Of a stretch of 28,495 nt of DNA, positions 4,434 through 27,624 are shown piece by piece. The stretch covers positions 27,518-56,012 of the forward strand of contig MU631385.1 of NCBI GenBank assembly GCA_026770615.1, read 5' to 3'. A program made the translations under genes and the position numbers. The DNA is from Pavlovales sp. CCMP2436 (Eukaryota > Haptophyta > Pavlovophyceae > Pavlovales). Numbering within the stretch: position 1 is the stretch's first letter; every line of letters begins with the position of its first letter. The notes below the pieces were generated by a model. The model was given only the letters and a program-made list of their open reading frames with translations. It had not been told where the DNA came from and ran no database searches.

Positions 4434-4531
4434 ATGGGTCGTTCGCGTCAGTCGGATCCGCAAAAGACCGCACACACGATCACACACGGTCGAAGAGGTA
4501 GAGAGGGCCGCCGCCGCCAAGTCAATCGCGA

Positions 4532-9801: not shown

Positions 9802-10096
9802 CTACAGAGCCTGGAGAGTGTGTGGCCGCGCCGGATGGGCCGCCTTCTTGACCTTGCTGCCTGTTGCTGCCTGTCCCGTCCTAGCCTGGGCCTGCTCGAG
9901 CGCATCGTGCCAGCAGATGTGCTTCCGGTGTGCGCACACAATGTTGGACCACCTGCGGATCTCAAACGCGGCATCCCAGCAGCCGGTGATGCGGTAGGTG
10001 CGCGCAACACCCGCAAAGTAGCAATCATAGCCATGAAGATCCATCCCCTCGACCACGTCACGAAGAGAGCTGGTCTTCCACGCGCCTAGGCCTATA

Positions 10097-10129
<33 letters not shown>

Positions 10130-11122
10130 NNNNNNNNNNNNNNNNNNNNNNNNNNNNNNNNNNNNNNNNNNNNNNNNNNNNNNNNNNNNNNNNNNNNNNN
10201 NNNNNNNNNNNNNNNNNNNNNNNNNNNNNNNNNNNNNNNNNNNNNNNNNNNNNNNNNNNNNNNNNNNNNNNNNNNNNNNNNNNNNNNNNNNNNNNNNNNN
10301 NNNNNNNNNNNNNNNNNNNNNNNNNNNNNNNNNNNNNNNNNNNNNNNNNNNNNNNNNNNNNNNNNNNNNNNNNNNNNNNNNNNNNNNNNNNNNNNNNNNN
10401 NNNNNNNNNNNNNNNNNNNNNNNNNNNNNGGGGGGGGGGGGGGGGGGGGGGGGGCAAGTGAAGATGAGGAGACAAATGGGGAAAAGTGCTCGGGCAAGGT
10501 GGGTGGGCAGATAGGAGGACGGGTGGGTAGGCAGCCAGCTCGCACCTGGCCCGGAATCGGCGCTCCCGCGGGAAGCAGCACCGTCGCCGCGCCCTCGGCG
10601 AGATCCGTCGCCGCTGCGAAAATAATCTGCAATCCAGACCCCTTCCAGATTGGTGAGGTCACATGCGCGGCCATGAGGAGCTGGGCGTTGACTGGAAGGG
10701 CCTCGACGCAGGTTACTCGTGGCAAGAGTTCGGGGCCTTCCGCAGGAATCGGGTCGGGGTAGTCCGCGTTGCATTGCATGCATGCGCCGCACCCCGTCGT
10801 GTTCCTCGAGAGCATAAGTGGGTTAACCAAGCCGAGCGCAGCTTTCCAGGCGGATGCGCTCGGCCACTCGGCTGCGGCATGACGGTTGCGGCGTGAGAGT
10901 AGGCGTGTCCAGCCCACACAGTCATATCCCTTGTTGCCACCGATCACGATAATTCGAGGTGGAGAGGGGAGGGTGGGGTGGGTGGGGATGAGAGTGCACC
11001 GGGCGAAGTGGTCTAACCAACTCATCCGCGGGCACATGGAGCGGTTCTCGACTGCGTCACGCTTGAACGTCTGCAGTACAGCAGTACAGCTCGGCCGCCC
11101 GCTGACAGTCTCCTCGAGCCGC
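9802..11122 (-). CDS. FkbM-family methyltransferase (host gene, split by an N gap, 5' end interrupted)
   Basis: This is an S-adenosylmethionine-dependent methyltransferase of the FkbM type. On the minus strand, about 11120-10546 reads coherently: LEETVSG..., MCPRMSWLDHFA, then IIVIGGNKGYDCVGW, the glycine-rich SAM-binding loop, and a CGACMQCNAD cysteine pair typical of algal FkbM proteins as I remember them. A donor-like site (CAG|GTGCGAG) lies at 10545. After the gap, a T-rich tract and a tatag acceptor lead into 10091-9802: LGAWKTSS..., EGMDLHGYDCYFAG, ITGCWDAAFEIRRWSNIVC, the usual C-terminal block of the family. So there are two exons, with the gap inside the intron. The frame meets a MITE at 11123, so the true N-terminus is either beyond it or lost. 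The family assignment rests on recalled motifs. Confidence 0.6.
10130..10429. other. Assembly gap (300 N) between A30 and G25 runs
   Basis: There are exactly 300 N between a run of 30 A (10100-10129) and a run of 25 G (10430-10454). The round size suggests a placeholder of unknown true length, and the homopolymers are probably where the reads failed. Confidence 0.9.
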
Positions 11123-12619: not shown

Positions 12620-13090
12620 GCCCACCACCTGGGCGATCACTGGCTGAATTCGTCGGCTGTACACACCAGATTTGCCTAACTGCTGCTACCTGTTTAAGTA
12701 AGTCGAAGTCAAAAAAAGAAAAGAAAAGGGGAGGTTTTAATGGGACGGAATCTGCGGGCGGGCCGCGGGCGGGCCGCTGGCGGCCCAGTGAAGGCCTCGC
12801 TCGGCTCAGCTGGGTTCTCTGTAGTATAGCTAACCTTCCTGCCGACTCGGAAGCTAATAAGGTGCGCAGGTCGAGCATGTTATTGAGGCTATTTTGACAC
12901 TTTCGTAAGTGGGCGCGCACAACTGGGGTTAAATTCGCGCCGATTGGGTCGGGGTGGAGGGTGTGCAAGTAACTTGATTGTGCCAGCCCACAGCCGGACG
13001 CGCGCGCCCCTAGTAGGCGGTATTAGTCCTCGTCTAGGGGTGCTACTGGAGGCCGCTTTTCGTGCAAAAAAAGGGCAACTTACCGTAGGG
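12620..13090. other. No supported gene
   Basis: The minus frame at 12480-12968 crosses this DNA without a recognisable domain. The only marks are a purine-rich patch (12710-12735) and a gggcgggccg duplication at 12757-12776. Confidence 0.35.
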
Positions 13091-13139
13091 CGCTTCAGTC
13101 AGTCTTGATGCTGCGTGTGCTCAGGCGTACGCAAGGTCC

Positions 13140-13436
13140 TCGAAGTGCCGTGTGTGCTCAGTGCGAAGGACGCGACTGGTCGAAGTACCGCGGCGTCTCG
13201 TCGGTGTTGAAGATGCGCGCTCCCTCTCCTGGTGCGCCCCCGCGACAGCGCGCGCGGTTGCGGGAGCGAGAGACCTGGATCACGCCTTCGCCTGGGAACG
13301 AGTTGTCTGTCGTGACCGAGTAATCGTCCGACTAGTCCATGCTGGTGTCGAGGGGGTGTGGGTAGGACTTGTCCAACTTCTGCTTCTCGAGGGCGCGCAC
13401 CGCGACCTTGGACAGCTTGGCGATCGTGTGTGTAAG
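13140..13436 (-). pseudogene. Transposase relic (DDE type, pogo/Tigger-like motif), cut by the 555-bp repeat
   Basis: The minus strand from 13430 reads TIAKLSKVAVRALEKQKLDK, then a TAG at about 13338, and continues in frame to ARIFNTDETPRYFDQSR before a TGA near 13160. The N.DETP.YFD block resembles the second catalytic aspartate region of pogo/Tigger-type DDE transposases. The frame is open right up to the border of the repeat at 13437 and is not seen on its other side within the window. Two stops and short length make it a relic. The family call rests on one motif. Confidence 0.35.
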
Positions 13437-13988
13437 CTTAGTTACGAGCGGGGACAGTTTTGCAACCCGTGTGCCTCCCATTTGTCTCATCAGTATCCAG
13501 GTATGTTTCCCGCATGTGCGATTGCGCGTCTTTTGTGTGTCCCCGGTCGGGTCGATCTTGATCGTTTTGGATTTGAGTGTATTTCATTTTGATCAAAAAC
13601 ACGGTTTTAAGGAGAACGCGCAGATTTCGGTGGCCCGTGTTTGTAAAACCGTGGTGGTCGTGTGGTGCCACGGTGAAGTGTGGGTGCGCAAATCGTTCAG
13701 TGCGGGGACAGTTTTGGATTTCGGAGACGAGTGCGTTATGGGCCGTGGGGTGTAAAACCGTGGTGGTCGTGTGGCGGCACGGTGGACTGTGAGTGCGCAA
13801 ATCGTTCAGTGCGGGGACAGTTTCGGATTTCGCAGATGATTTAGGTGTGTTTCGTTTTTGTGGAAATGACGGTTTCATCGATGAACGCGCAGATCTCGGT
13901 GGCCCGTGTTCGTAAAACCGTGGTGGTTGTGTGGTGCCACGGTGAAGTGTGGGTGCGCAAATCGTTCAGTGCGGGGACAGTTTTGGAT
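13437..13988 (+). repeat. 555-bp repeat, copy 2, at the left edge of the viral block
   Basis: This is nearly identical to 3879-4433 in the same orientation, with iteron-like units (aaaaccgtggtggt ... gcgcaaatcgttcagtgcgg) at about 13646, 13754 and 13915. It ends 160 bases before the first viral start codon and begins inside a transposase relic. Its position suggests the left terminal or subterminal repeat of the virus. No inverted copy is present at the right end (27.5-28.5 kb). Confidence 0.7.
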
Positions 13989-14002
13989 TTTGGTAAAATG
14001 AT

Positions 14003-14060
14003 GGGACCATGGAGCAGCGGTTAAAAAAGATGGGACATGGAGCAGCGGTCTCGGGCTACG
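14003..14060 (+). repeat. Short direct repeat before the first viral gene
   Basis: gatgggaccatggagcagcg (14003) recurs with one base missing at about 14030 (gatgggacatggagcagcgg). A pair of agggttag motifs follows at about 14076 and 14089. The function is unknown; a subterminal regulatory position is possible. Confidence 0.5.
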
Positions 14061-14125
14061 GAAATAGCACATGTTAGGGTTAGTGCTAGGGTTAGCCTTC
14101 GATTCGTTGTACGTCTCTCGCGTTG

Positions 14126-14137
14126 AATAAAAACCTC
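14126..14137 (+). promoter_or_regulatory. Viral promoter box for the zinc-ribbon gene
   Basis: aataaaaacctc lies 23 bases before ATG 14149. The same box in variants stands at a similar distance before most genes of the block (14534, 20184, 20768, 23996 minus, 25156 minus, 26234). Confidence 0.5.
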
Positions 14138-14148
14138 GGTGAAGGCAA

Positions 14149-14436
14149 ATGGGCACTATCAAGCGCTTCGAGATGAAGATCCGCCCGCGTCTCGGTGTTG
14201 TTGCTGACGGTTGCGACGAAACAGCGTCGATAACGTGCACAGGCTGCGGAGAGCAAAAGACCTCGAACGAGATGAACCATCGCAGGCGAAAGACCGGCGA
14301 GATCAAGGTCACAAACAAGTGCGGGATGTGCTATCGTACACAGGCCCGGGTGCGCTCGGTTCGGTTCCGCATCAGCCACGACGATAGTATCGATCTGCAA
14401 GACGCACTCGATTTGCTCGATAGGGCTTACGATTAA
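14149..14436 (+). CDS. Small zinc-ribbon-like viral protein
   Basis: This is a 95-residue protein. CTGC near residue 30 and CGMC near residue 58 form two CxxC pairs about 25 residues apart, the geometry of a zinc ribbon. Basic residues between the pairs (MNHRRRKTGEIKVTNK) suggest nucleic-acid binding. The C-terminus is acidic and helical (DSIDLQDALDLLDRAYD). As the first gene of the rightward replication block it may be a transcription or replication accessory factor, but that is inference from position. The start is fixed by the promoter box 23 bases upstream. After its TAA, 14450-14497 can fold imperfectly (gatcatc ... gatgatc). Confidence 0.6.
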   Translation: MGTIKRFEMKIRPRLGVVADGCDETASITCTGCGEQKTSNEMNHRRRKTGEIKVTNKCGMCYRTQARVRSVRFRISHDDSIDLQDALDLLDRAYD

Positions 14437-14533
14437 AACACAGACTTCCCAAGATCATCTCAGATCGACCAGGATCTTAAAATCCTCGGATGATCCAGAT
14501 CTCTCCAAAATGGTCGTTCGCGTTATTCCAGCC

Positions 14534-14546
14534 AAATAAATATCTC
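14534..14546 (+). promoter_or_regulatory. Viral promoter box for the DNA polymerase gene
   Basis: aaataaatatctc lies 29 bases upstream of ATG 14563 and is a close variant of the box at 20184-20196. Confidence 0.5.
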
Positions 14547-14562
14547 AGCCAAGACTACAAAG

Positions 14563-17259
14563 ATGGATAGCTATCAGACCCAGCTAGCGCTTGAACGCTT
14601 CCAGAGCCAATTCAACCCGCCACGCATGAGTCAAGTCGCCGCCGCCGCAATGATCGCAAGGGCCCGCCCCACCCGCCACGGACCGTTCTTACCAGCACCC
14701 CAGCCCGTCCCCTCGCGTGCAGGTCGGTCGTTCTTCAAGGTCACGGGAGCAACCAAATACAAAACCCGAGTGCAAAAAACGGTCGATAGCGTAACCCAAC
14801 GTGAGAACATCGCAATTTTCAAAGATCTGTACGACCTTTACGGACAAAAAGCCCCAGAGGTCAAATTTAACAACAAAAAAGCAGCATACGTGATCAAAAC
14901 AGGTCGTCGCATACCCTCGACACAAAAAGGATTCGACAAGCTCGAGACGCGCGTTTCAAACGAATCGAATCGCCTCGATGAAATGGTAATGATGGATTAC
15001 AAAGACGCCGTCGAAGGATGTGCAGGAAACAAAATTGGAAAAATTATATTGATTAGGTTTTTGCTAAGAAAGGAAATTGCAAAATTACGATCCGCTGTAC
15101 CCCAAATAAATGTCATCACAACGCTCGCTGGATTCAAACAAATCAGGTATAATTAGGAAAAAATAGATGAAACAATCGACGAACTCGATACATTTTTAGA
15201 AGACATAGATGCAAGAACCTCACAGCAATCACTAATAAAAAACTCCGCAACAAAGCGTATAAGGTTCAAGCTGGAGAACAAAATTTACGCAAAAGCGTTC
15301 GCTGTAATTTTTGGTGAAATTATAAGGAATGAAATTGAAAAAACAGAGAGCCAAGCGGTGCTGATGCATTTAGTATCATTCAGTGGTCTATACTTGATTT
15401 GTGATCCCGATGAGCTGAGAGGGCTTCCAGAACCCGACTTTGCCACTAAATTTTGGTGCATACACAGCGAGAACTTGACAAATTTCGGAACAATAATAAA
15501 GCAGTCAGCAAGAACAGATAAATTTGTAAAACTTATGACTAAAAAGTTTATAGAAGTATTCGCTAAGACTCTTGTAAGACAATCATCAACTCACACAGAA
15601 AGATGGTTTACGCAAGGTTTCGACTTCGATCTCTCGATTATGCCTACGTCCCTCAACGACCCAGGTGGGACCTACGTACCCCTTCCAAAAGCTTTCACAA
15701 ACACAACAAAACGGCTTGTCAACCCGCAAAACAAAGACGCTCGGTGCTTTTTGTGGTCGAGTCTGGTATCTTTTGCAAAAGATGAAAAGTTTGAACACCC
15801 AGAGCGTATCAGCGTTTTAAAGAAAATAGACAACAAAATTACAATCCCTACCGATGCAACATTCCCGGTAGCAGGTGTCGATATAGGCATGTGGGAAGCA
15901 GCAAACCCTAAAATCACATGGTCGATATACGGTCTCGGCAAAGGGAAAGATGTGATCAGCATTCGCGTAGCCCCAGCGGCATTGCAACGCAAACGCAAAC
16001 ATATCATGCTAGTGCTCTACAAAAACCATTATGTATTTGCAGGATCCCTGGATGCCCTGCTGTGCGTCGACGATGACCACCGTACGTTTTGCACGTGCTG
16101 CCATTCGTACTTTTACAAGAACTCAGCAAGTCAAATGGAAAAAATGAAAGCACACGTTAAAGTATGCAACGTTGTAGACCAAACACGCATAATCCACAGA
16201 GATCAGTGGAACGATACCCAAACACCGTACGAGCGTGCAATGCAAAGCACAGATCCATACGTGCGCGAAAAGATAATAAAACAAACGTGCACACTAACGG
16301 ACAAGCCGTGGGATAACCTAGATCAAAAGGCACCGTTTGTCGCGTACGCGGATTTTGAAGCAACGGCCGTACCAGGCAGCCCGCAAAAAGCAGTGTCGTA
16401 CCGTATGGTCATCGTTCACACCAGCGGTGCACCAGACGATGTGTACCAGTACCTCGGTGAGAATGCGCACGTGGTATTTGTGGAAAAACTGATTGAGTTA
16501 AACTCTGTATACCGCGAGATATTCAATCAATACCCCAAATTCTTAAAGGAAGTACCAGACGATTTCACACAGGCAAAAAAATGCTATTTGTGCGCTGAAA
16601 GCGAAAGCTTTTATGGACACAACAAACACCTCGATCATTCGCATATAACCGGCGAGTACCTTGGTGCCGCATACATGCGCTGCAATACGCACCGCCGCAA
16701 AGATAAACAAATCAGTGTGTTTTTTCACAATTCAAAGGGGTACGATACGCATCACATTTGGCTTGCGTTGGGTCACTGTGTTGATAAAATTTGGATAAAC
16801 AACGATAATAAAAAGAAAGGAAAAGTTGACGATGAAGAGGATGACGAAGAGAACGATAAGGATAACGGAAAAGTCCGCATCAGCGGTATCCCACAAAATA
16901 CTGAGAAACTCAAAACGATCAACATCGGTCTTTTTAGCGTACGAGACTCGATGGACTTCATGATGGGTGGACTTGCCAAGCTTATCAAGATATGTCCTGA
17001 AAAGTCAAAAAAGAGGATCCTCGAAGTTGCTCAGAAGCACGCAGTCGAAAAGTCGTTGCCGGTAGATCAAGTGTTCGAGCAGCTCAAGCAAAAAGGCGTG
17101 TTTCCGTACGAATACGACTGGGTAGGAAACCTCGACGCAGAGATCGACCCCGCCCATTTCCAATCAACTCTCGGTAAGGTATATAGCGTCACAACAAGCC
17201 AAACAATGTGCAGACGGGTGACTCGACGATCGCCGCCAATCTTGCCGCGAAAAACCTGA
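14563..17259 (+). CDS. Protein-primed-type family B DNA polymerase, N-terminal half (Polinton/PLV), with in-frame TAG
   Basis: This is the exonuclease half of the viral replicative polymerase. From ATG 14563 the frame is open to 17259 apart from one TAG at 15154-15156; codons on both sides keep the same Lys/Glu/Ile-rich character. Recognisable in order: the INpxNKDxxCFLW-like block of Polinton polymerases (LVNPQNKDARCFLWS, about 15715), a hydrophobic HIMLVLYKNHYVF segment, a CTCC...H...C zinc-binding motif (about 16090-16170), exo I YADFEA (16336-16353) and exo II HNSKGYD (16729-16749). An acidic Asp/Glu/Lys run (16800-16870) is an unusual insertion. The frame ends in unrelated residues after about 17180, and the polymerase continues in another frame from 17208. 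The first 197 residues resemble nothing I know and may be the terminal-protein region, by analogy with other protein-primed polymerases. Confidence 0.8.
17179..17213 (+). other. Frame change in the polymerase; candidate 35-nt intron
   Basis: Upstream coding is in frame 1 and downstream in frame 3. The segment starts with gtatat after an AAG codon, ends in gtgcag before ACG, and is 35 bases long, which connects the two frames at codon boundaries. A plain frameshift mutation or sequencing error in the same region is equally possible. Confidence 0.35.
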
Positions 17260-20144
17260 TCTGCAAAAATGAAACCGAAATGCGCATCAACGAAATGAAG
17301 GAGAAGCTGCATATTCATACCTACCGCGAGCTGCACGACCTGTATTTGGCGGTGGACGTCGCGGGTCTTGTCGACATCATGGAAGACTTGCGCGAGACAA
17401 CTTACAAAGCGTTCAAGGTAGATCTGGTGCACACGTTTGGTCTCCCAACGCTCGCAAAGTCAGTAGCGTTTAAAATGATACGCGAAACAAAAGAGCTCAC
17501 CGGTGTGAGTGGAATTGAGCTGCTGCAGACCTCGGACTTGTATAAATTTTTCGACGAGTCAAAGGTGGGAGGGATCGCGATGAGCAAGCAGCAACACGCC
17601 ATCGCGGTGAACAGACCTGGGTTTGAAGGATACGATGAAAGCAAACCAACGGTCGCCCTAGAGAAGCAGGACGCAGTTGGACTGTATGCGACAACGCAAC
17701 ACCTTAAATTACCATACGGTGATTACCACGACTACACACAAGCCGAGATTGATACGTTTGACCCATCACACACGAAGTGGGGAAGCCTGCCAAGTACACC
17801 CGAGGACATCGACAAACCGGACCGCTGGCAAACCGACATTGGTTGTCAAATCGAGGCGGATTGGTCTATCCCGCACCATTTGCACGACGAGTTTAATGAG
17901 CTTCCTCCGATGCCAACACATGCGATCGTTCCGAGGGAATGGTTGTCAGATGAGCAGCAAGAAGCGCTACGTGGAACCAGCCCGACAAGAAAGCTGACGC
18001 CAACCCTTTGCGATAAGTTTAATTACAGGTGTAACGTATCTTTAGCCAAATTGTGGCTCAGTCTTGGGTGTAAAATCACAAAAGTCCATAGGGTAGTGAG
18101 TTTCAAACTAGCGGCTTATTTGCGACCGTTCATCGAGAAGACGCTGGCTCTGCGACGTGCGTCAGAAAACGAATGGGAGAGTAATTTTTGGAAACTATTT
18201 GGAAACGCATTTTATGGGAAGCTGATAGAGCGCATTTTTGGAAGAAGCAGCCTTTGCTTCACAACGCGTGCAAAGATTTTCAAGCACCGTGTTGAATCCG
18301 GTAGATGCCAACGTGTACTCCCCATCACCGAGGGTTTTGCATGCCTATTCATGCAGCAGCAAAACATCCACGCGGACAAGGCAATCCCAGCAGGGTGCGC
18401 AATCCTCGACTATTCAAAGCTAATCATGTATTCTTTCTGGCACAAAGTTCTTCAGCCTGCGTTTGGCCACAAAAATATGAAAATAACCGCGATGGACACA
18501 GACTGCTTCAGCTATTCAGTAAACTGCAAAACGGCACGCGAGTACGAGGATAAGAAACAAAAGATTGAACCTGTTTGGTTTGATCGTTCGGGGTTCAAAA
18601 AAGACGACCCTCGGATGAGCATGGACAACAAGAAACGTGCTGGGTGCTTTGCAGAGGAAAACGGAAGTGTCGAGATCGTAGAGGCAAGGGCTATCAGCGC
18701 AAAATGCTATACTTACAGACTTGCAAACGGTTACAGCGACAGTCGATTAAAAGGTGTCCCCAAGTACATCTCTCGTCAGCTTAACATGAGCCATTTCGAG
18801 GCTGTTGCAAATGGTGCAAGAATAAGCGCAAAGTTCAATATGCTCAAATCAAAAAAGCACTCGGTGCAGCTGGTGACAATGAACAAACGAGCACCAAAAT
18901 GGGGTGATGACAAGTCGTTTGCGCACAACAGCGGGCGGTATCTTTCACACGGACATTATCTCTCACCGAGCTTTAAGCAAGTTCAAAAGTCGATTCGTCA
19001 GCCCCCAACACGCGTGTACGCGCAAAACGCGGTATCCATCTCAGTTTCTGGTGGGGAGACTCAGTTTTATCGGGAAGTTGTCGGCGGAAAAGAAAATGGT
19101 GCGTGGCTGCCAACGAATTCACGGTTCTTGGGTGAATACGATAAGAAATATTGGGAGAAGATTGAAGGTACACCTGAAGAACTTTTCAAGATCTTCAAGG
19201 AGCGTGGAAACATCCGTTCGGTGTTAATCGACAACCTTTACATTTCGAGATTCCATGTTTCAGATTCAAGGCATTATAAGTTTATGGAACTCATCAGTGA
19301 CGACGAGGTCGAAGACGAATATTTTGACGGTGAGGAGGACGATTACCGCTATGAGATGATCGACACGTCGTGGATCAATTCTAAAACGCCCGACGATGAA
19401 GTGGCGCTGGTGAAACAATTTACCGCTGTACCGAGAACGTACTGGAGAAAGCAGCTCCAAGATGGAACAGAGTACGGGCGAGCCTACGCTTCTGCTCCGG
19501 GTGGCAGGTGGGTGAAATGTGATGACGGTGAAAAGAAATGGCGCAGTGCGTCACTCCAAGGCTGTCCAAAAGCACTCCGGTCAAAATTGGCTGGTAAATA
19601 CTATGCCGACGTCGATATGGCCGGAGCCGCACCTTGTCTAATATTGTCCATTGCTAGGAAATATGGACTGGAAGACCAGGTACCAACTCTTAAAAGACTT
19701 GCGCAGGACGTCAAGGGTGTGAGGAAATCGGTGTGCGATTCGACGGGTAAAGAGGCGGGTGATGTCAAGCTCTTAATTAACAAAGCTATACACGGAGGTT
19801 ACAACAAAGACGCCTTTTTAACAGCTCTTCGAATGGAATCACTTACAATCGCAAACGCACTCTGGGAAGACCCAACCAAGGCAGAGTTGCGTAAAGTATG
19901 TACAAAAGGCGGAAACAAAGGAAAAATCCAAATGCTGTCAAGGGTGTGGCAAACCGAAGAGAATTGTGCATTAATGATGGCCTTAAAGTGCATTGATAAC
20001 GATGAGAGGGCTGTATTAATCTTTGATGGCCTGCTCGTCCCACTCGACCGTATCAAAGGTGACTTTGAGGAGATGACGGCAAGATTTGAAGATGCAACCC
20101 GCGAGCTTTACCCTGAGCTTAAATGGGTTGTTAAACCACTGTAA
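17208..20144 (+). CDS. PolB polymerase half fused to a TV-Pol/family-A-like palm domain
   Basis: This is a 978-residue frame opening on a GTG and lacking its own ATG, so it is the continuation of the upstream frame. PolB part: exo III-like YRELHDLYLAVDV (17330-17360), motif A DAVGLYA (17670-17690), motif B KLFGNAFYGKL (18192-18224), LDYSKLIMYSF, motif C MDTDCF (18492-18509; Cys where Ser is usual), thumb AKCYTY (about 18700), and the C-terminal DDKSF...YLSHGH block (about 18910-18960). After a linker with an acidic run (19290-19350) a second domain begins: QGCPKALRSKLAGKYY, motif A ADVDMAGAAP (about 19605-19634), motif B KLLINKAIHGGY (about 19767-19800), motif C LIFDGLLVP (about 20014-20040), ending ELKWVVKPL. 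That order matches TV-Pol-type family-A-like polymerases known from virophages, PLVs and giant viruses, but here without the helicase. The box at 20184 belongs to the next gene. Confidence 0.8.
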   Translation: MQTGDSTIAANLAAKNLICKNETEMRINEMKEKLHIHTYRELHDLYLAVDVAGLVDIMEDLRETTYKAFKVDLVHTFGLPTLAKSVAFKMIRETKELTGVSGIELLQTSDLYKFFDESKVGGIAMSKQQHAIAVNRPGFEGYDESKPTVALEKQDAVGLYATTQHLKLPYGDYHDYTQAEIDTFDPSHTKWGSLPSTPEDIDKPDRWQTDIGCQIEADWSIPHHLHDEFNELPPMPTHAIVPREWLSDEQQEALRGTSPTRKLTPTLCDKFNYRCNVSLAKLWLSLGCKITKVHRVVSFKLAAYLRPFIEKTLALRRASENEWESNFWKLFGNAFYGKLIERIFGRSSLCFTTRAKIFKHRVESGRCQRVLPITEGFACLFMQQQNIHADKAIPAGCAILDYSKLIMYSFWHKVLQPAFGHKNMKITAMDTDCFSYSVNCKTAREYEDKKQKIEPVWFDRSGFKKDDPRMSMDNKKRAGCFAEENGSVEIVEARAISAKCYTYRLANGYSDSRLKGVPKYISRQLNMSHFEAVANGARISAKFNMLKSKKHSVQLVTMNKRAPKWGDDKSFAHNSGRYLSHGHYLSPSFKQVQKSIRQPPTRVYAQNAVSISVSGGETQFYREVVGGKENGAWLPTNSRFLGEYDKKYWEKIEGTPEELFKIFKERGNIRSVLIDNLYISRFHVSDSRHYKFMELISDDEVEDEYFDGEEDDYRYEMIDTSWINSKTPDDEVALVKQFTAVPRTYWRKQLQDGTEYGRAYASAPGGRWVKCDDGEKKWRSASLQGCPKALRSKLAGKYYADVDMAGAAPCLILSIARKYGLEDQVPTLKRLAQDVKGVRKSVCDSTGKEAGDVKLLINKAIHGGYNKDAFLTALRMESLTIANALWEDPTKAELRKVCTKGGNKGKIQMLSRVWQTEENCALMMALKCIDNDERAVLIFDGLLVPLDRIKGDFEEMTARFEDATRELYPELKWVVKPL

Positions 20145-20183
20145 GTGTACTTTAAGTGCAAACGTTTGACGCGTTTCTTACAC

Positions 20184-20196
20184 AAATAAAAATCTC
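20184..20196 (+). promoter_or_regulatory. Viral promoter box
   Basis: aaataaaaatctc lies 31 bases before ATG 20215, in the 70-base gap after the polymerase stop. Confidence 0.5.
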
Positions 20197-20214
20197 CAGA
20201 GATGGTATAGCAAA

Positions 20215-20760
20215 ATGCTTTATTTTTCACTGTTCCGCAACAAACATGCCGAAAACCCACACCTCGCACGTCTTGATGAGAACGCAGACGTTCCCCTCGA
20301 CTACAACGATAAAGGCGGGTACAATATCGGAACGATAAGGATGCTAAATCAGTACACAGCAACGGGTTCCTTGCTGTCACCAAGCACAAACAACGAAATG
20401 GGTTTACAATTCCGTGCAACAGAATACAAAATGATGGTTATTGATACAGATCTTGACGTCTTTATGGAATACTGCAATACCCCCGACCTTGTAAAACTCT
20501 TCATTCATCTTAAACAAGAAGAATACGCTAACAAAAAGCTACAAAAGCAGCAACAACGTGAAACCGACAAGATGAACTTTCAGCAAAATGTAGAAAAACA
20601 GTTGCCATTTTACACTCAAGAGATTGAAGACGAAGGGTCGATGGCCGGTGATGAAATCGCACGTGTTCAAGCACAAAGTGAAGAAGAATATAACCTAGCA
20701 TGCGAAATGTGGGCTCTCGAAGCGGAAATGCGCGGTGATGAACCCTCCGGTTTGGACTAG
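20215..20760 (+). CDS. Viral protein of unknown function with coiled-coil middle
   Basis: This is a 181-residue protein. The first 100 residues look globular (NIGTIRMLNQYTATGSLLSP, TEYKMMVIDTDLDVFMEYC). Residues 100-130 are a charged, Gln/Lys-rich helix (QEEYANKKLQKQQQRETDK), probably coiled coil. The last 40 residues are acidic. There are no signal peptide or membrane segments. It lies between the polymerase and the CaaX protein on the same strand with its own promoter box. No family is recognised; an early-class or DNA-associated role is a positional guess only. Confidence 0.65.
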   Translation: MLYFSLFRNKHAENPHLARLDENADVPLDYNDKGGYNIGTIRMLNQYTATGSLLSPSTNNEMGLQFRATEYKMMVIDTDLDVFMEYCNTPDLVKLFIHLKQEEYANKKLQKQQQRETDKMNFQQNVEKQLPFYTQEIEDEGSMAGDEIARVQAQSEEEYNLACEMWALEAEMRGDEPSGLD

Positions 20761-20767
20761 GAGGTAG

Positions 20768-20780
20768 AAATAAAATCTTG
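20768..20780 (+). promoter_or_regulatory. Viral promoter box
   Basis: aaataaaatcttg begins 7 bases after the previous stop and 32 bases before ATG 20800. It supports ATG 20800 over the upstream in-frame GTG at 20785. Confidence 0.45.
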
Positions 20781-20799
20781 CACAGTGCTAATAAGCACC

Positions 20800-21138
20800 A
20801 TGCAAAACTTTTATGCAAAGACAACAACCCCCCAAATACTCGAGAGCAGGCTCAATGAGATTGCACGTCTTATCGGCCAAATGAATCTAACAAAGGACAA
20901 ATTGCTTCTTATCAATGTTAAGATTATTAGCGATGGGTCAATTACAGGCTCATTTTCACATGATAAATTTTTTTTTTTTAAGGTGCAATACAACTTCATT
21001 ACCGTTTGGAGGCGTGGATTTTTATGCAGAGAAGCTGCTTACAAGCTTCTGGTCAAGCACAATCTAGACATCATTTTTTCACCAGGCGAACCGCGACCAA
21101 ATGGTGAAGAAGAAGACAAATGCTGCGCTCTTTTTTGA
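20800..21138 (+). CDS. Small viral protein ending in a CaaX-like prenylation motif
   Basis: This is a 112-residue protein from ATG 20800. The N-terminal half forms an amphipathic helix (ILESRLNEIARLIGQMNLTKDK). The middle is basic and aromatic (VQYNFITVWRRGFL). The C-terminus after an acidic patch is EEEDKCCALF. The last four residues, C-A-L-F, fit the eukaryotic CaaX prenylation rule, with Phe at the last position favouring geranylgeranylation, and the preceding Cys could be acylated. A run of 12 T (20968-20979) encodes four Phe residues and also looks like a polypyrimidine tract (see 20917-20982). The function is unknown; membrane targeting in the host cell is inferred from the tail. Confidence 0.6.
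   Translation: MQNFYAKTTTPQILESRLNEIARLIGQMNLTKDKLLLINVKIISDGSITGSFSHDKFFFFKVQYNFITVWRRGFLCREAAYKLLVKHNLDIIFSPGEPRPNGEEEDKCCALF
20917..20982 (+). other. Candidate 66-nt in-frame intron with T12 tract
   Basis: It begins GTTAAG at a codon boundary and ends in T12 AAG before GTG. The length is 66 bases (22 codons), so both retained and removed forms keep the frame. It is a pattern-based suggestion only. Confidence 0.25.
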
Positions 21139-21302
21139 TTTATTTCCAAGCCCACATCACAATGCTCAAGTGCACAACGTACAAATGCGAGAAGCGCGAC
21201 CTTAAGCACGCTCGGAAGGTTTCAGAAATGTTCGATCCTCCGATGATCTCGACGTTTCCAAGTTGCATCGATTTTGATTCGAGTATGATTTCTCTTTTTC
21301 GA
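21139..21302. other. Convergent intergenic spacer with hairpin-forming motif
   Basis: The spacer lies between the plus-strand CaaX gene and the minus-strand lipase gene. cctccgatgatc (21237) is a one-mismatch copy of cctcggatgatc at 14484 and 21334; the latter can fold as ctcgg...ccgag. These motifs follow the stops of plus-strand genes, so a 3'-end signal is possible. A 72-residue frame starts at ATG 21162 and overlaps the lipase 3' end; I do not call it a gene. Confidence 0.35.
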
Positions 21303-21920
21303 TCAGATGTGTCTGTAATCATGTGCGTACAACCCTCGGATGATCATACCGAGTGGGGCTCGGATTGGCCCCGGTAGGAGGTGGGGTGCGGCCGCCGGCA
21401 TTCCAGTGGGAGTCACCTCCTCCCGGAAACCACCGTGCGACAGTACCGATACTGCATCACCCCTTGCGCGCACATCGAGCTCGTTGGGGTTTGATTGTGC
21501 GCCCAAGTCACGAACGCCCACTGCCTTGTCCACAGTGAGTATGAGCCCACGCGCACCCGAATGCTCGGCAAGGTGTCCTCCAAGTGAGTGACCGATTGCG
21601 TGAGCCAGACCGTATTTTGCTTGCACCTTCTCTATGAGCGCCTTGGACCTTTGATGTCTCGGGCCGAATATGCCTACACCAAGTTGCAAATTCTCGGCCC
21701 AATCCGCCGCACTCACGCTTCCGCGGAAGCAAACAACTGCACCTGTGGCGGCTGAAAAAAACACCTTGGCCTCGTTCGAACTCAGTTTCAAGTCCATCGA
21801 ATAACCCAGTTTTCCCATCTCCATGCCGGCTGCGTAGAGGGGCGCGTACGAGGCACGTAGGAATGCTGGTAAGTCTCGTCTTAGGATTTTACCAACAGCA
21901 CCAAAGTCTTCCGGAGCCAT
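21303..21920 (-). CDS. Class 3 lipase-like alpha/beta hydrolase
   Basis: This is a 205-residue protein. AVVCFRGSVSAADWAENLQ (residues 61-79) corresponds to the strand and oxyanion region of class 3 lipases (xxFRGTxxxxDW). AIGHSLGGHLAEH (108-120) is the nucleophile elbow with Ser112. A plausible acid is Asp155 (RGDAVSVL), and His200 or His204 in the terminal YAHDYRH completes a triad. No signal peptide is seen, so it would act inside the cell or in the virion, perhaps breaching membranes or helping escape; this is inference. Its ATG overlaps the TAA of the upstream GIY-YIG gene by one base (TAATG), so the two may be made from one transcript. All three catalytic positions are present, so it looks intact. 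Confidence 0.7.
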   Translation of the reverse strand: MAPEDFGAVGKILRRDLPAFLRASYAPLYAAGMEMGKLGYSMDLKLSSNEAKVFFSAATGAVVCFRGSVSAADWAENLQLGVGIFGPRHQRSKALIEKVQAKYGLAHAIGHSLGGHLAEHSGARGLILTVDKAVGVRDLGAQSNPNELDVRARGDAVSVLSHGGFREEVTPTGMPAAAPHLLPGPIRAPLGMIIRGLYAHDYRHI

Positions 21921-22606
21921 TAAATGTTTCTCCCTGTGTAAGGCACCATATATAATTCTTTAGGAGTGTGTGCATTTCGGAAGCGGCGTGTTGGACCACC
22001 ATCGTCCCCACTCACCTCCGCACAACCCCCACGACCGATCGTGACCTGTACTTTGCCAACTTGCCTCACGTTTTGTCGCCACAGACTCCGTGTGAGCACA
22101 TTTGGTACGAGAGGAAAAATCGAGGTTTGGTCAAGTGTTACATGCGAACCTCCTTGCTTCATTATCTTACCCGTACCCCTCTCGAAAACGTACCAGATGC
22201 CATCGACGGCTGTGCGAAGGTCCGTCAACAGCTTGGCAACCGCGTTGTAAACGCCATCCGACGCTCCTAGCCATCTACGCCATTCCTTGTCATGCGAAGG
22301 TGCTTCCCATCCGTTTTCCTTGTTCGCCATACTGAGTACGCGTGTCTCGCGAGTCCGCACGAGTGTTGGTGAAACGACAAGGTACCCGACCAGATCGAAC
22401 GATTTACCGGGTGCTGAATAGGGCATATAGTGAGAATAACCATGCATCGCTTGATTGTAGATATTTGTAGTCAGACCAAATTTGAGAAACGGGACCTTAC
22501 TCCAGCCCGGCCAGATCACGTAAATCCCACTTACGCGTTTACCCTTTATGTTTGCGTTTGAGAGTGCTCTTCCTACTTGGGTGTGGCGTTCAACTGTGTC
22601 TATCAT
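21920..22606 (-). CDS. GIY-YIG-like nuclease domain protein
   Basis: This is a 228-residue protein from ATG 22606. GIYVI (27-31) and KFGLT (42-46) with a following Y-rich helix (NIYNQAMHGYSHYM) match the GIY-YIG/T5orf172 core. RETRVL supplies Glu87 in the position of the metal-binding Glu, and KEWRRW (107-112) resembles the later EW motif. The expected arginine of the central helix is not obvious, so activity is uncertain. Residues 130-228 have no recognised domain. A longer version would need a GTG at 22690 and a poly-Gln leader made by the TTG repeat, which I consider 5' untranslated. It lies inside the structural block rather than beside the polymerase. Confidence 0.6.
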   Translation of the reverse strand: MIDTVERHTQVGRALSNANIKGKRVSGIYVIWPGWSKVPFLKFGLTTNIYNQAMHGYSHYMPYSAPGKSFDLVGYLVVSPTLVRTRETRVLSMANKENGWEAPSHDKEWRRWLGASDGVYNAVAKLLTDLRTAVDGIWYVFERGTGKIMKQGGSHVTLDQTSIFPLVPNVLTRSLWRQNVRQVGKVQVTIGRGGCAEVSGDDGGPTRRFRNAHTPKELYMVPYTGRNI

Positions 22607-22640
22607 CAATCTCGCTTGAGTGCGATGATAATTACAGTTA

Positions 22641-22679
22641 TTTTGTTGTTGTTGTTGTTGTTGTTTTTGTTTTTTTTTA
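22641..22679. repeat. TTG/T simple repeat between capsid and GIY-YIG genes
   Basis: About six TTG units followed by T-rich sequence. On the minus strand this is an A-rich, CAA-repeat leader upstream of the GIY-YIG start. Confidence 0.7.
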
Positions 22680-22696
22680 TGAGTGTCCACTACTCC

Positions 22697-23975
22697 TCAG
22701 GCGTCGAACGTGATCGCGCCGTTGGCGAAAACGAGTGACTTCTCCATCTGCACGAAAGCATCGAGACGGATCGCACTCGTCTGCGTACCCAGATTGATCT
22801 CGAGAATGACAGTGCTGTCTATGAGGAGACCGTCGCCCATAGCCTCAGTCATCGGGAAGCACTGCAGAGAAACTCCAATAACGAACGCAGTTGCAAGATA
22901 GTCGGCGCCAGATACGTACGTACGCGCGGTTGACTCCGAGAGCTGCATCCCCAACGCCCTCATGAGCTCCATGCGAGACTCCGCACCAGCGGTGACGTAC
23001 GAGGACGGAATGATGGTCGACCCAATTCTGAACCTATACGAGACATTGCCGACGGTGTCTCCGCCAGTGAAACGATCCAAATTGAACACACCTAGAGCAC
23101 CCAAGTTTTGCCGTTTTGCGAATAGCTACAAAGATCGCGGTTGCTGACTTTGCGCGCACAGCGATAGGCATGCTCACATAGTTGGAACCCGCTGCAACCG
23201 AGGTCGACGTATGTACAAAATCGACACATGGGATAGAAATGACACCGCCGAGGTCCAAAACCATCTTACGCTCGACGTTTGGGTCGATGCGGATATACGA
23301 GATCCACATCTTGAAATTGTCGATTGCGCACGTCCCAACAGGGGCAGCCGACCATTTTCCGTAATTCAGCACGTCTGCGAGTTTGATGACGATCCGGATG
23401 TTCTCCTTTGCTTGCGAAATTGGCCAAGCGCGCATAGACATCGAGCCAAGGATCGAAATGAGCGGCACGCACACCGTCAGAAAACCGCCCGGAGCAATCG
23501 TAGCCCCGAGTCTGGCGTAATAGGCATCGGTGAAATTGGCGGCGGTCGCGATAGCTGCTGGGACATAGTCGGCCACCCCGCGCATCGTACCGCTCGTTTT
23601 ATAATCATCCGCGCCGCAGCTGAAGTCGGTAAGAATTTGCTGGAGCAGATTGTATTCTGAGATGGAGCTCAACTGACGCGATCCGTGAAACACATCGATT
23701 TGCGAGAGTACGCATGCAGCCGATTTGTCGAGCTGGACGCTTTGCGCTGCACCGTTGTAAATACGGAAGCTGAGAGCTGTTTGAGAGGGGTCGATCATTT
23801 GTCCCGGCGTGCCACATGCCAGTTCCAGGGTGATTTGCGAGCTTGGTGCGAATGTAGCGCCGTTGGTAGGCGTGATGTACGCCCGAATGCATTCGCTCTT
23901 TACAGCCGGCGGGCGTGGTGAAAAATCGTAAAAAGACGGGATCGCGGGAGCGTACTGATGGTCGGTGTCGTTCAT
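22697..23975 (-). CDS. Double jelly-roll major capsid protein, with frameshift
   Basis: This is the main shell protein of Polinton-like viruses. From ATG 23975 about 290 residues run in one frame, and the remaining 135 are in another frame (open 23104-22697). The break falls near 23100-23110, at a GGG run on the coding strand, with a one-base offset. Supporting blocks: ITLELACGTPGQMIDPSQTA near the N-terminus (family pattern LEixxGxxxxYID), LSQIDVFHG...SISEYNLLQQIL, FLTVCVPLISILG...PISQAKENIRIVIKLADVL, and after the break YRFRIGSTIIPSSY. The total of about 425 residues is a usual size for this class. A promoter-like box lies 21 bases upstream. It sits between the GIY-YIG and small hydrophobic virion genes on the same strand. 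The capsid call rests on recalled family patterns and on the adjacent packaging genes. Confidence 0.75.
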
Positions 23976-23995
23976 TGTAGATGTATCTTTACGTT

Positions 23996-24006
23996 AGATT
24001 TTAATT
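23996..24006 (-). promoter_or_regulatory. Viral promoter box for the capsid gene
   Basis: On the minus strand aattaaaatct lies about 21 bases before ATG 23975, in the 38-base gap after the neighbouring gene. Confidence 0.45.
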
Positions 24007-24013
24007 CAGCGTG

Positions 24014-24355
24014 CTACATTTTCTCAAATTTGTTGGTTAGAAGTTTACCCACTCCTCCAGTTGCACTCGCGACGGATCCAGCAAGTCCGACCGTATTAAC
24101 CATCGATTTCCTTACCCCTACGAGACCTTGGACGATCGGTATGTTCTTCAACACCGGGATGGCTTCGGCAAGTTTTAGCGCCTGATGACTGATGTCGGCT
24201 ACTTGCTGGGCCGCCTTCCCTGCGCTTGCAAGAAACGTGCTCGTGATGCGACCGATATTGCCTAACCCTGCTCCGGCAGTGCGCCCGATTTGTTTTGCTC
24301 CCTGTGATAGTCGTCCGAGCAATCCCATTTTGATGGTGGTGACAGTCCCATACAT
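24014..24355 (-). CDS. Small Gly/Ala-rich amphipathic protein, probable virion component
   Basis: This is a 113-residue protein. It begins with either MYGTVTTIK or the internal MGLLGRL ten codons later, which is tempting because an A run sits directly before the first ATG. It is made of Gly/Ala/Ser-rich amphipathic and hydrophobic helices (AGAGLGNIGRITSTFLASAGKAAQQVADI; VGLAGSVASATGGVGKLL) with spaced Lys/Arg. Such composition is typical of internal or membrane-active capsid proteins in adenovirus- and PLV-type virions. It is placed between the two capsid genes. No specific family is recognised. Confidence 0.55.
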   Translation of the reverse strand: MYGTVTTIKMGLLGRLSQGAKQIGRTAGAGLGNIGRITSTFLASAGKAAQQVADISHQALKLAEAIPVLKNIPIVQGLVGVRKSMVNTVGLAGSVASATGGVGKLLTNKFEKM

Positions 24356-24361
24356 TTTTTT

Positions 24362-25141
24362 TTAGACAATGAACACCGATAGTGCACAAGCCCATTCTAA
24401 TCCATTCGTGTCGTATGGGTCGCCGTTGTCCGTTACCAGTTGAAGGCGCAGTGACGAGATGCTCTTTTTTGTCGTTTCGAGTAGCATTGAAAACGGAGCT
24501 AAACATGTCTGCGTCGACCCCCATGCCACGCTTATCGGGATTGATGCGAACGTGTTTAGCGAGCTTCCATTCCCCAGCGAATCAGTGGTGTGCAGATCGA
24601 GTTGTGGAGCGATAAGGCGTATTGCGCGTGGCCCACGCATGTCATAGAAGCTTGGTAGGAATGTAGCGACTGTGGAAGTGGTGATCGGGGTGATGCTTCC
24701 TGTACCTAGGAGCTGGTTCATTGTAGCTCCCGAAGGGTATACGGTAGTTATATTTGTTGCACTTGAGTTTGTGAATTTCAATTTGACATCACCGGCGGTA
24801 TATGAGACCGTGACAGTTCTAAGTGGGAACGCTGCAAGCCACGCGGCGTTGAAAGCCGTAACAAATGACGATATACCCGAGTAGTAACCGGGTGTCATGG
24901 TGAATGTAGAAATGGCACCCGCATTGTTGGTATCGGCAAATCGGAATGTGTTATTTAACGAATTAATTGTGTAGTGATTTATGGGAATCGCAGCCGTCGC
25001 AAGTTGGATCAGTATTCTTTCATCTTGCCCGCAGATAAGCGGTATACCCAAATCCCAGTCGCAGCAGTCACGTCGATATTCACCTAGCGGGTAGTTCTCT
25101 GCCGACGCCGAAGACAAATATATGAATTGTTGGCTCGACAT
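24362..25141 (-). CDS. Minor capsid (penton, single jelly-roll) protein
   Basis: This is a 259-residue protein from ATG 25141, chosen because the promoter-like A7 TCT box lies 15 bases upstream; the frame can be extended to 25360 only through the divergent gene. Blocks typical of PLV minor capsid proteins: an N-terminal YLSS...EYRRDCCDWDLGIPLI, then RILIQLATAAIPINHYTINSLNNTFRF, and C-terminal RAIRLIAPQLDLHTTD, NTFASIPIS, KKSISSLRLQLVTDNGDPYDTNGLEW...SVFIV. It is expected at the fivefold vertices of the capsid. It is divergently arranged with the small basic gene at 25184 over a 42-base gap. No break is seen. Confidence 0.75.
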   Translation of the reverse strand: MSSQQFIYLSSASAENYPLGEYRRDCCDWDLGIPLICGQDERILIQLATAAIPINHYTINSLNNTFRFADTNNAGAISTFTMTPGYYSGISSFVTAFNAAWLAAFPLRTVTVSYTAGDVKLKFTNSSATNITTVYPSGATMNQLLGTGSITPITTSTVATFLPSFYDMRGPRAIRLIAPQLDLHTTDSLGNGSSLNTFASIPISVAWGSTQTCLAPFSMLLETTKKSISSLRLQLVTDNGDPYDTNGLEWACALSVFIV

Positions 25142-25183
25142 TTGGTACTTGTCGTCTAGATTTTTTTCTTGTGTACGATCATA
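25142..25183. promoter_or_regulatory. Compact divergent promoter between minor capsid and packaging genes
   Basis: Only 42 bases separate the two start codons. On the minus strand aaaaaaatctag (25156-25167) matches the viral box. On the plus strand the only candidate is ttttttctt followed by gtgtacgatcata. Initiation for both directions must be packed here or within the neighbouring coding regions. Confidence 0.5.
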
Positions 25184-25501
25184 ATGTCTATCATAATGTC
25201 TGAACCAACAACGTGCGAACCTGTCACCGAAGAACTGTCGGTCAGCCCCGCGATTCCAGCCGTCGATCAGGCTACGCAGACTGCTAAGAAGAAAGCAACA
25301 CCCGGTCAAGCTCGTGCACTCGCCGCTGCGCGTGATCGATACAATGCGGAGAGGACTCATAGTAAGATGGAGAAACTAAGGCTGAAACTGCTTGGTTATT
25401 GCGTACCGGGTATTCCACCATCATTGCCTCCGCTCCACACGCCTACTCCGTCACCCACACCAACAGCACCACCTCGAGAGAATTATGTCCGCTACTGTTA
25501 A
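25184..25501 (+). CDS. Small basic viral protein upstream of the packaging ATPase
   Basis: This is a 105-residue protein from ATG 25184 (a second in-frame ATG is four codons later). The N-terminal 30 residues are Glu/Pro/Thr-rich. The centre is a basic helix (KKKATPGQARALAAARDRYNAERTHSKMEKLRLKLLGY), and the tail is Pro-rich with TPTPSPTPTAPP. Short basic helical proteins of this kind often precede the ATPase gene in PLVs, in my recollection. It ends two bases before the ATPase ATG, so both are probably on one transcript. The function is not known. Confidence 0.6.
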   Translation: MSIIMSEPTTCEPVTEELSVSPAIPAVDQATQTAKKKATPGQARALAAARDRYNAERTHSKMEKLRLKLLGYCVPGIPPSLPPLHTPTPSPTPTAPPRENYVRYC

Positions 25502-25503
25502 CT

Positions 25504-26226
25504 ATGATACCTCCAACGATCGTGGAGGAAGTTGACGAGATACAAATACACACGCCTACGTTCTTGTGCGATACACCGTACCACGGCGTCCCAAGCCCGC
25601 TCCCTCAGAACCATAGCTTCATATTGTTTTGTGGGCCGCCGCGCAGCGGTAAAAGCTCTTTAAGTACCGCTTTTTTGACGCAACAACACCCTCCAATCTT
25701 CGTAAATCAGTTCAACCGTGTTTTCGTACTCGTGCCACAGGGTTCATTCGAATCGATTAAAGATAACCCGTTCAAAGGTCATCACTCGCTCGCACATGAG
25801 TTCAATAGCAAGATTCTCAGCGAGATCATTGCGTGCTGCGAGGTGTCGGCTCGGGCGGGCAAGGAGAGTTTATTGCTCATCGACGATTTCATGACATCGT
25901 TAAAAGACCCCTCATTGCGTAAACAGTTTGAAAAAGTGGTCGCGAATCGCCGTCATCTCAAACTCTTAGTGTGGGTGATATCGCAGACGTTTAATGCATT
26001 ACCGCTCAGCACGCACAAACTGCTCTCACACATCGCGCTGTTCAAATCAGCGAATTTGAAGGAGATCGAAAATGTTCGTTCAGAGCTTGTTCCCCGCTCG
26101 CGAGAGGATTTTGATGCAATTTATCGTCATATCTTCAGGGTTGGCGGAGACCCGCACGCGTTCATGTGGGTAGACGTTGCGTCTGGCGAGATCTACAACA
26201 AATTCTCGAGATTGGTTGTAACTTAA
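25504..26226 (+). CDS. FtsK/HerA-type genome-packaging ATPase
   Basis: This is a 240-residue protein that drives viral DNA into the capsid. Walker A GPPRSGKSS (residues 44-52), Walker B LLLIDDF (123-129) and the sensor-like VWVISQ (145-150) are intact, with the NQFNRVFVLVP strand between Walker A and B. Length and motif spacing fit the A32-like packaging ATPases shared by PLVs, virophages and giant viruses. ATG 25504 is preferred to the frame-open TG-start at 25399, because the upstream part overlaps the basic gene in another frame and resembles nothing. The next gene has its own box 27 bases before its start. Confidence 0.85.
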   Translation: MIPPTIVEEVDEIQIHTPTFLCDTPYHGVPSPLPQNHSFILFCGPPRSGKSSLSTAFLTQQHPPIFVNQFNRVFVLVPQGSFESIKDNPFKGHHSLAHEFNSKILSEIIACCEVSARAGKESLLLIDDFMTSLKDPSLRKQFEKVVANRRHLKLLVWVISQTFNALPLSTHKLLSHIALFKSANLKEIENVRSELVPRSREDFDAIYRHIFRVGGDPHAFMWVDVASGEIYNKFSRLVVT

Positions 26227-26233
26227 AAATCGC

Positions 26234-26245
26234 ATTAAAAATGAC
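26234..26245 (+). promoter_or_regulatory. Viral promoter box
   Basis: attaaaaatgac lies 27 bases before ATG 26261, with a related taaaaatcgc just upstream at 26224. It is the least conserved of the set. Confidence 0.4.
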
Positions 26246-26260
26246 AAGTAGAATCACAAC

Positions 26261-27508: not shown

Positions 27509-27624
27509 CTCATCCACCGTGCGCGCGTAGGGCTCTATAATTTTGCATTGTGTGGCACATCGTTGGTACATTAGAATATAATTCCAAATTCGAACCTAAT
27601 CGAGGAGTAAATCAGACAATTTTG
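27509..27624. other. Right junction between virus and host gene
   Basis: Only 116 bases separate the last viral stop from the stop codon of the host gene on the other strand. No copy of the 555-bp repeat, in either orientation, and no obvious inverted terminal repeat is present, so the right terminus is either short, eroded or of a different kind. Confidence 0.5.

Follow-up and report, generated by a model that had tools for sequence, protein, structure and literature searches.

A family B DNA polymerase continuous with a family A/TV-Pol-like domain in probable Polinton-like viral elements of the haptophyte Pavlovales sp. CCMP2436

In the haptophyte Pavlovales sp. CCMP2436, one open reading frame of 978 codons (17208-20144, + strand), with zero internal stops, joins the polymerase part of a family B DNA polymerase (PolB) to a C-terminal domain (CTD) whose predicted fold is that of the palm and fingers of family A polymerases. 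The frame lies in a stretch of 28,495 nucleotides, hereafter the window, which corresponds to C79:27518-56012 of the genome searched (119 Mb, 703 contigs). We think it rather probable that it belongs to the replicase of a Polinton-like endogenous virus, built from PolB with its exonuclease, a linker and a family A/TV-Pol-like CTD serving as primase-polymerase. The same CTD also ends replicases with an SF1 helicase in this genome, and the presence of one module on two replicases is a larger result than the fusion itself. A bolder reading, with a probability of about 0.45, is a dual-polymerase replicase, a single polypeptide in which a protein-primed, proofreading PolB would be combined with an active family A/TV-Pol-type primase-polymerase; the portable module would have crossed between PolB and SF1-helicase replicases two or more times within the viruses of one algal lineage. 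If this is true, the enzyme could initiate DNA synthesis on a protein as well as on a primer of its own making. The frame is divided as follows:

17208..19286, + strand: polymerase region of PolB, with motifs A, B, C and KxY intact (PF03175, dN/dS)
19287..19346, + strand: acidic linker joining the two polymerase parts (from sequence)
19347..20141, + strand: CTD, a family A/TV-Pol-like palm-and-fingers domain of 265 aa
19614-19616 (residue 803) and 20025-20027 (residue 940), + strand: predicted catalytic Asp of the CTD

The PolB motifs were located at residues 155-161 (DAVGLYA), 329-339 (KLFGNAFYGKL), 429-433 (MDTDC), 498-503 (AKCYTY) and 567-583 (DDK..GH) of the 978-codon frame. A second set came after the acidic stretch behind them, at residues 801-809 (DVDMAGAAP), 854-864 (KLLINKAIHGG) and 937-945 (LIFDGLLVP). 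The two motif sets in one frame that a preliminary description of this DNA had claimed were thus found, and no superfamily 3 helicase (S3H) was seen within the PolB-CTD protein, as that description had also stated.

The Pfam profile DNA_pol_B_2 (PF03175) matched 12 of the 18 pieces scanned, with a best E of 3.5e-7; the window piece alone gave E 0.003 and 17 bits, under the cut-off of 25.8. The profile, together with the intact motifs A, B, C and KxY, is as in protein-primed family B polymerases and supports the earlier assignment as PolB. The PolB of this Polinton-like element is probably protein-primed. A profile search of the PDB with the PolB alignment (A4) found nothing. The full-length AF2 model had a mean pLDDT of 44.5 and left the PolB half without a confident fold (66 of 71 ten-residue blocks of residues 1-710 were under a mean of 50 in a check for TPR1/TPR2), so that protein-priming subdomains did not show in it and a predicted palm fold is given for the CTD alone. 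Of the two palm folds that the preliminary description had proposed to look for by structure prediction, the one in the CTD appeared, but the one in the PolB half did not take a confident shape. With the Polinton-type pPolB, the protein shares exonuclease and polymerase motifs, the DNA_pol_B_2 profile and a homing-endonuclease-like insert. In the accessible text of PMC11071308, the order of that pPolB is TP-vOTU-EXO-PALM with no family A-type domain, whereas the window PolB carries one C-terminally.

The window copy of the gene is broken: a stop and a frame change divide it into three open pieces (14563-15156, 15358-17259 and 17208-20144). Upstream of the polymerase the following features were recognised:

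14563..15156, + strand: N-terminal portion of PolB (197 codons), stop-ended in the window copy, with 65-67% identity to L015, L016 and L017
15358..17259, + strand: portion of PolB with the exonuclease region (633 codons), which runs on into the polymerase in L016 and L017
16345-16362 and 16726-16746, + strand: Exo I- and Exo II-like motifs, read by eye
16582..16698, + strand: endonuclease VII (HNH)-like insert between both exonuclease motifs (Pfam PF02945)

When the long frames of relatives were placed on the window by tblastn, they started at ~14.5-14.8 kb and ran in one frame to ~17.2 kb, crossing the window stop at 15154-15156, and those reaching past ~17.2 kb shifted to another frame. The matching N-terminal part runs on into the exonuclease region in L015, L016 and L017, and exonuclease and polymerase stand in a single frame in L016 (1504 codons) and L017 (1579 codons). 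The PF02945 match to the insert was under the cut-off of 23.6 in the window (E 3.2e-4, 21 bits) and above it in L016 (24.3 bits). Because of the upstream break, the 978-codon frame is not the whole gene and its GTG start is an artefact. The earlier wording of one uninterrupted frame therefore holds for the polymerase plus CTD, but not for the whole gene; the join between these two parts is unaffected by the break.

The join recurs across the genome. The query P0001 gave at least 55 matching rows (47 of 201 candidates scored), and the best 20 PolB places after the window itself were taken as loci L009-L028. The CTD was present in 12 of these 20 (L009-L013, L020, L021, L023, L024 and L026-L028). 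Five others (L014-L018) had clean CTD-less PolB ends, in which ...GIYP and a stop come after an acidic stretch. The remaining three (L019, L022, L025) were broken ahead of the PolB end. Since long PolB frames without the CTD exist, the CTD is an optional add-on. Polymerase and CTD shared one open frame in L009, L010, L011, L012, L013, L023, L024 and L026, with lengths of 1275 (L009), 984 (L012), 798 (L024), 652 (L026) and 650 (L011) codons; in L013 the CTD was cut short within the shared frame. L021 had a stop inside the CTD, and L020, L027 and L028 carried the CTD on a separate piece. Identity to the window CTD was 51-92% in L009, L011, L012, L024 and L026 and 46-92% for the CTD pieces across loci. 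In the PolB-part tree, which scores L019, L022 and L025 as CTD-less although they are broken before the end, the label CTD-carrying versus CTD-less required three changes, of which the starred branches force only one. Two further PolB copies (C3:828876-831800 and C655:14037-16652) have parts resembling different PolB kinds (78-81% versus 52-66%), which suggests from sequence that they are mosaics.

Since other genome copies share the join in one open frame, it is not a chance product of the window. A misassembly or a chance open frame might be suspected in a fragmented genome with repetitive element copies and an N run in the window. However, the same join, at low dN/dS, is seen in copies that lie on different contigs and have diverged from one another (51-92% CTD identity), and we give such an artefact almost no credence. 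A reading that is quite improbable, though less so, is that a distinct CTD protein arises through splicing, processing or a start codon inside the linker; the fusion frame would then not be one working enzyme. Met codons do occur near the PolB-CTD junction, and two Pavlovales sp. CCMP2436 gene predictions (P0003 and P0004) begin in the linker and cover only the CTD. The genome has a place that matches P0003 at 99% identity over 288 residues, and stops in the PolB match just upstream of that place (C238) would force such a model. The join is, moreover, open and in register in several copies, including the frames of 1706 and 1275 codons.

Selection was assessed by dN/dS (Nei-Gojobori), for the CTD in a set of 20 rows in which the pairs starting with four of them were listed. 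Against the window copy, the six of 19 CTD comparisons with unsaturated dS gave 0.07-0.11; other pairs gave 0.05 (L029-L031), 0.15 (L009-L012) and 0.19 (L009-L010). The PolB part gave 0.04-0.10 in the five of six pairs with usable dS. The linker values of 0.04 and 0.06 carry little weight because only two of six pairs were usable, at 32 codons each and with high dS. Judged by these ratios, the CTD has evolved under purifying selection. As many copies are broken today, the constraint presumably acted during replication of the element, before insertion.

The predicted model of the CTD has a family A palm-and-fingers fold, which was reproduced inside the full-length AF2 model. The predicted palm, the fingers inserted after its first strand and a structural match to Pol I place it in the family A (Pol I-type) fold. 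Virophage replication proteins were among the best named viral matches of the model: a Zamilon virus replication protein (E 3e-9, TM 0.67), a Pyramimonas orientalis virus protein (E 4.4e-9, TM 0.70) and a Qinghai Lake virophage helicase/primase/polymerase (E 2.6e-7, TM 0.67). We take the Zamilon and Qinghai Lake matches to be replicases of the TV-Pol-S3H type. Foldseek against the PDB gave moderate TM only, with 0.50 by query and an rmsd of 8.6 in the best row.

We compared the CTD with the TV-Pol family as outlined in the accessible text of PMC2579912, which describes a thumb of two helices, an invariant Arg in a hairpin, a pair of Asp in the palm, and an Asp and RxxxK in the fingers. In an alignment of 30 CTDs, D90, D227, K141 and R78 (CTD numbering) were identical in 30/30 rows, and the two Asp, which correspond to the palm pair, both align with invariant Asp of the phage set described below. 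R45 was identical in all 29 rows with a letter there; it lies in strand 42-48, where local pLDDT is low, and its equivalence to the TV-Pol Arg is assumed. K141 is invariant, and no Arg stands four residues upstream of it in the 30 CTD rows; RxxxK is likewise absent from the six phage TV-Pol sequences aligned. Ahead of the hairpin there is one helix (16-26) of low confidence, and the model has no two-helix thumb.

The phage set comprised MAP_030 of Microcystis phage LMM01 and five relatives. We assume MAP_030 to be a candidate for the TV-Pol meant in PMC2579912; it was picked by its transposase neighbour and its motifs, and that paper names the phage. When the 30 CTDs and the six phage TV-Pols were compared by hhalign, LQ, R, D90, K141, G, E and DG fell in register over 218 columns, in a match that was weak (probability 1.6%, E 0.032). 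The reversed phage set scored 14.9 against 23.7 for the real one, and two of 200 column shuffles reached the real score. MAP_030 as a single sequence aligned with the CTD over 13 residues only, outside its catalytic motifs, and a second phage protein, MAP_014, did not match the CTD. Because the profile match is weak and 2/200 shuffles equal it, we call the CTD TV-Pol-like with a family A fold, not a member of the TV-Pol family. The earlier label of a TV-Pol/family-A-like palm thus keeps its family A fold and motif order, whereas the profile match to phage TV-Pols remains weak. Of the outcomes that the preliminary description had named as refuting it, a C-terminal region lacking both a family A/TV-Pol match and a palm fold, or evidence of two separate genes, none was seen in the sequences and models. 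MAP_030 stands alone, unlike the fused CTD, and is alike in motif order once the six relatives are aligned. The TV-Pol-S3H proteins of Sputnik-type virophages and Polinton-like viruses (PLVs) are like the CTD in fold, and both occur in mobile viral elements of protists. In the accessible texts of PMC4642659, PMC3671162 and PMC11071308, TV-Pol is N-terminal there and joined to a superfamily 3 helicase, whereas the window CTD is C-terminal, sits on a PolB or SF1-helicase protein, lacks RxxxK and has little thumb. The missing RxxxK motif, the small thumb and the optional presence would also suit a CTD that keeps the family A fold without being a polymerase, as a DNA-binding or processivity appendage. 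An appendage, however, would not need both predicted catalytic Asp and the fingers Lys, which are invariant in 30/30 rows, and we hold this alternative to be very unlikely.

Beyond this genome, the CTD has few visible relatives. Searches with P0001 against Pfam and PHROGs gave nothing useful for the CTD, and NCBIfam gave three unrelated matches at E 0.03 or more. By sequence, the PDB yielded no match in one search and one chance match (E 0.8) in another. With residues 640-978, phmmer found none at E <= 0.01 among 3116 candidates, a length-limited set in which shorter relatives are beyond reach. Among viral_contigs, P0001, the CTD alignment A1, the L024 polymerase plus CTD piece and the window ATPase found nothing useful; among phages, the CTD gave 14 records, all terminases at E 7 or more. 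The CTD profile matched six of 5.8 billion proteins, all labelled Pavlovales sp. CCMP2436, and so there is no independent lineage for it. The preliminary description had suggested looking for the same fusion elsewhere; the 5.8 billion proteins and viral_contigs held zero copies outside the host lineage. As far as these searches reach, the CTD module is found in one host lineage only. The S3H family DUF5906 (Pfam) had 16 matches elsewhere in the genome, the nearest 42 kb from a listed CTD match (C228). By eye, no CTD was seen at four of these 16 places (L052-L055), hence no TV-Pol-S3H donor among those four. Two of the S3H places are adjoined by a shared ORF (L055:1329-2093 and L054:1484-1948).

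When the genome was searched with the L024 CTD, 87 rows at E <= 10 and 78 at E <= 1e-3 were obtained, some copies giving several rows. L029 (1706 codons), L030 (1468) and L031 (1403), chosen as long frames absent from the scored PolB matches, end in a CTD that is 57-63% identical to that of the window; outside the CTD they differ, and neither EXO nor POL matched them in that blast comparison. L029 has an SF1 helicase core (Pfam AAA_30, E 1.3e-8, above the cut-off), and a PDB search by sequence reached no better than E 0.11, to an ATP-dependent DNA helicase. By eye it also shows a PD-(D/E)XK-like stretch and degenerate PolB-like palm strings, with no PolB Pfam match. Its helicase gave at least 104 matching rows in the genome (73 of 204 candidates scored). 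Several rows at 60-100% identity adjoin a CTD match. Among those at ~46-50%, C382 and C456 are without one, and both proteins end in an acidic tail. A 48%-identity copy ends in a partial CTD match (C206:50892-51086, residues 210-271, E 1.6e-7), so the split of SF1-helicase kinds with and without the CTD is not clean. The CTD stands behind an acidic stretch in both PolB and SF1-helicase replicases. The PLV proteins comparable to L029-L031, in having a polymerase fused to an SF1 helicase, are the Tlr1-like helicases and the SF1H-pPolB of Oxyrrhis. In the accessible texts of PMC12721341 and PMC11071308, neither carries a TV-Pol/family A domain, and the Tlr1-like proteins end in GIY-YIG or HNH endonucleases, whereas L029-L031 end in the CTD.

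Among the matches listed, PolB and SF1-helicase replicases look like alternatives; six contigs carry both, and the nearest pair lies 56 kb apart (C236). Downstream of the window replicase are two genes with homologues behind SF1-helicase replicases:

20215..20760, + strand: gene downstream of the window replicase, with a homologue after the SF1-helicase replicase in L058
20785..21138, + strand: second gene downstream of the window replicase, with a homologue after the SF1-helicase replicase in L057

The first product is 42% identical to its L058 homologue over 116 aa (E 7e-27) and the second 33% identical to its L057 homologue over 119 aa (E 7e-17), each in a single comparison, and the SF1-helicase replicases preceding these homologues are CTD-less. 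Homologous genes thus stand behind both replicases, and therefore a single position in a common backbone seems to accommodate one or the other.

A tree was built from 30 CTDs, leaving out pieces that cover under 200 query residues: 11 on PolB of the window's kind, 7 on another PolB kind (60%), 7 on SF1-helicase proteins, and 5 unassigned and uncounted. Some of the labels were assigned from a same-strand helicase or PolB match directly upstream, in place of a shared open frame. The PolB/SF1-helicase label needs three changes on this tree. In AU tests, a single SF1-helicase clade was rejected (p 6e-53; p 5e-6 without the long-branched L033, a subset chosen after the tree was seen), and so was a single clade of the window's PolB kind (p 3e-5), because the PolB-linked L044 groups with SF1-helicase CTDs. 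The other PolB kind forms one clade. By these trees, the CTD has moved between the PolB and SF1-helicase kinds of replicase, and this suggests that viruses have exchanged it as a portable module for copying DNA.

What had been offered as a possible snapshot of replicase exchange is therefore better put as a module moved between two replicases, on the evidence of the tree and of L029-L031. The exchange reading proper would have the CTD added behind a resident replicase on the way to replacing it, a redundant passenger on PolB whose own activity would count chiefly in proteins with a degenerate resident polymerase, such as those with the SF1 helicase. It draws on the CTD being found on two replicases and being present or absent among close relatives, on the homologous genes behind both, and on L027, where PolB is in several pieces and the CTD piece is open. 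PolA- and PolB-type replicases are also treated as replacing each other in the accessible texts of PMC11071308 and PMC3671162, and PolB- and PolA/TV-Pol-type replication have so far been regarded as mutually replacing alternatives in virophages and PLVs. Yet the CTD is constrained in PolB-linked copies, and the window frame keeps the motifs of both PolB and CTD intact; we consider a passenger of this kind unlikely. The fused form recurs in many copies, the module being present or absent and the replicase of either kind, and this opens the exchange of replicases to testing.

For the replicase that we think rather probable, the simplest working picture is a two-engine enzyme. The CTD would be catalytically active and work as a primase-polymerase, as proposed for TV-Pols, making primers or filling gaps on a single-stranded template, and the PolB part would carry out protein-primed, proofread synthesis. 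In the SF1-helicase protein, the CTD would be the main primase/polymerase behind the helicase. TV-Pol is predicted to be both primase and polymerase in the accessible text of PMC2579912, and a primase of SCCmec elements is described in that of PMC10061031 as consisting of a polymerase domain of family A and a small partner protein that confers ssDNA binding. The fused form lets one test whether a single enzyme can combine priming by a protein with priming by a primase. Fusions published for this group, as given in the accessible texts, are PolA/TVpol-S3H, AEP-S3H, pPolB-SF1H (Tlr1), SF1H-pPolB (Oxyrrhis) and TP-vOTU-EXO-PALM (PMC12721341, PMC12220804, PMC11071308, PMC4642659, PMC10675990, PMC3671162), and helicases fused to an unknown domain have been remarked on (PMC10120064, accessible text). 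No pPolB-TVpol or SF1H-TVpol protein is named in the accessible parts of the open-access literature searched, which leaves most subscription journals outside.

Other genes of the element in the window include the following candidates:

22697-23975, - strand: candidate major capsid gene in two overlapping frames, 23034-23975 and 22697-23104
25399..26226, + strand: P-loop protein, candidate A32-like packaging ATPase (Pox_A32 E 0.0054, below the cut-off; other weak P-loop matches)

As it is read in two overlapping frames, the capsid candidate is probably broken; its piece 23034-23975 found nothing in Pfam or PDB. No inverted repeat longer than 32 nt occurs inside 13000-28495, and the element may extend past the window. 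On the - strand, 21303-21920 is a small ORF that resembles an alpha/beta-hydrolase or lipase, contains the string GHSLGG and has weak Pfam matches, and 24362-25360, with a weak DUF5901 match (E 0.0017, below the cut-off), is possibly a structural protein of the element.

Outside the element, an ORF at 8343-9029 (+ strand) contains an OTU-protease-like string (DGNCLPYAVLRSA), seen by eye, and an N run at ~10092-10475, between poly-F and poly-P translations, is an assembly gap. Two near-identical direct repeats (3879-4437 and 13437-13993) lie ~9.5 kb apart, with internal 111-nt repeats in each, and the right one stops just ahead of the viral element. These repeats may be the ends of another mobile element.
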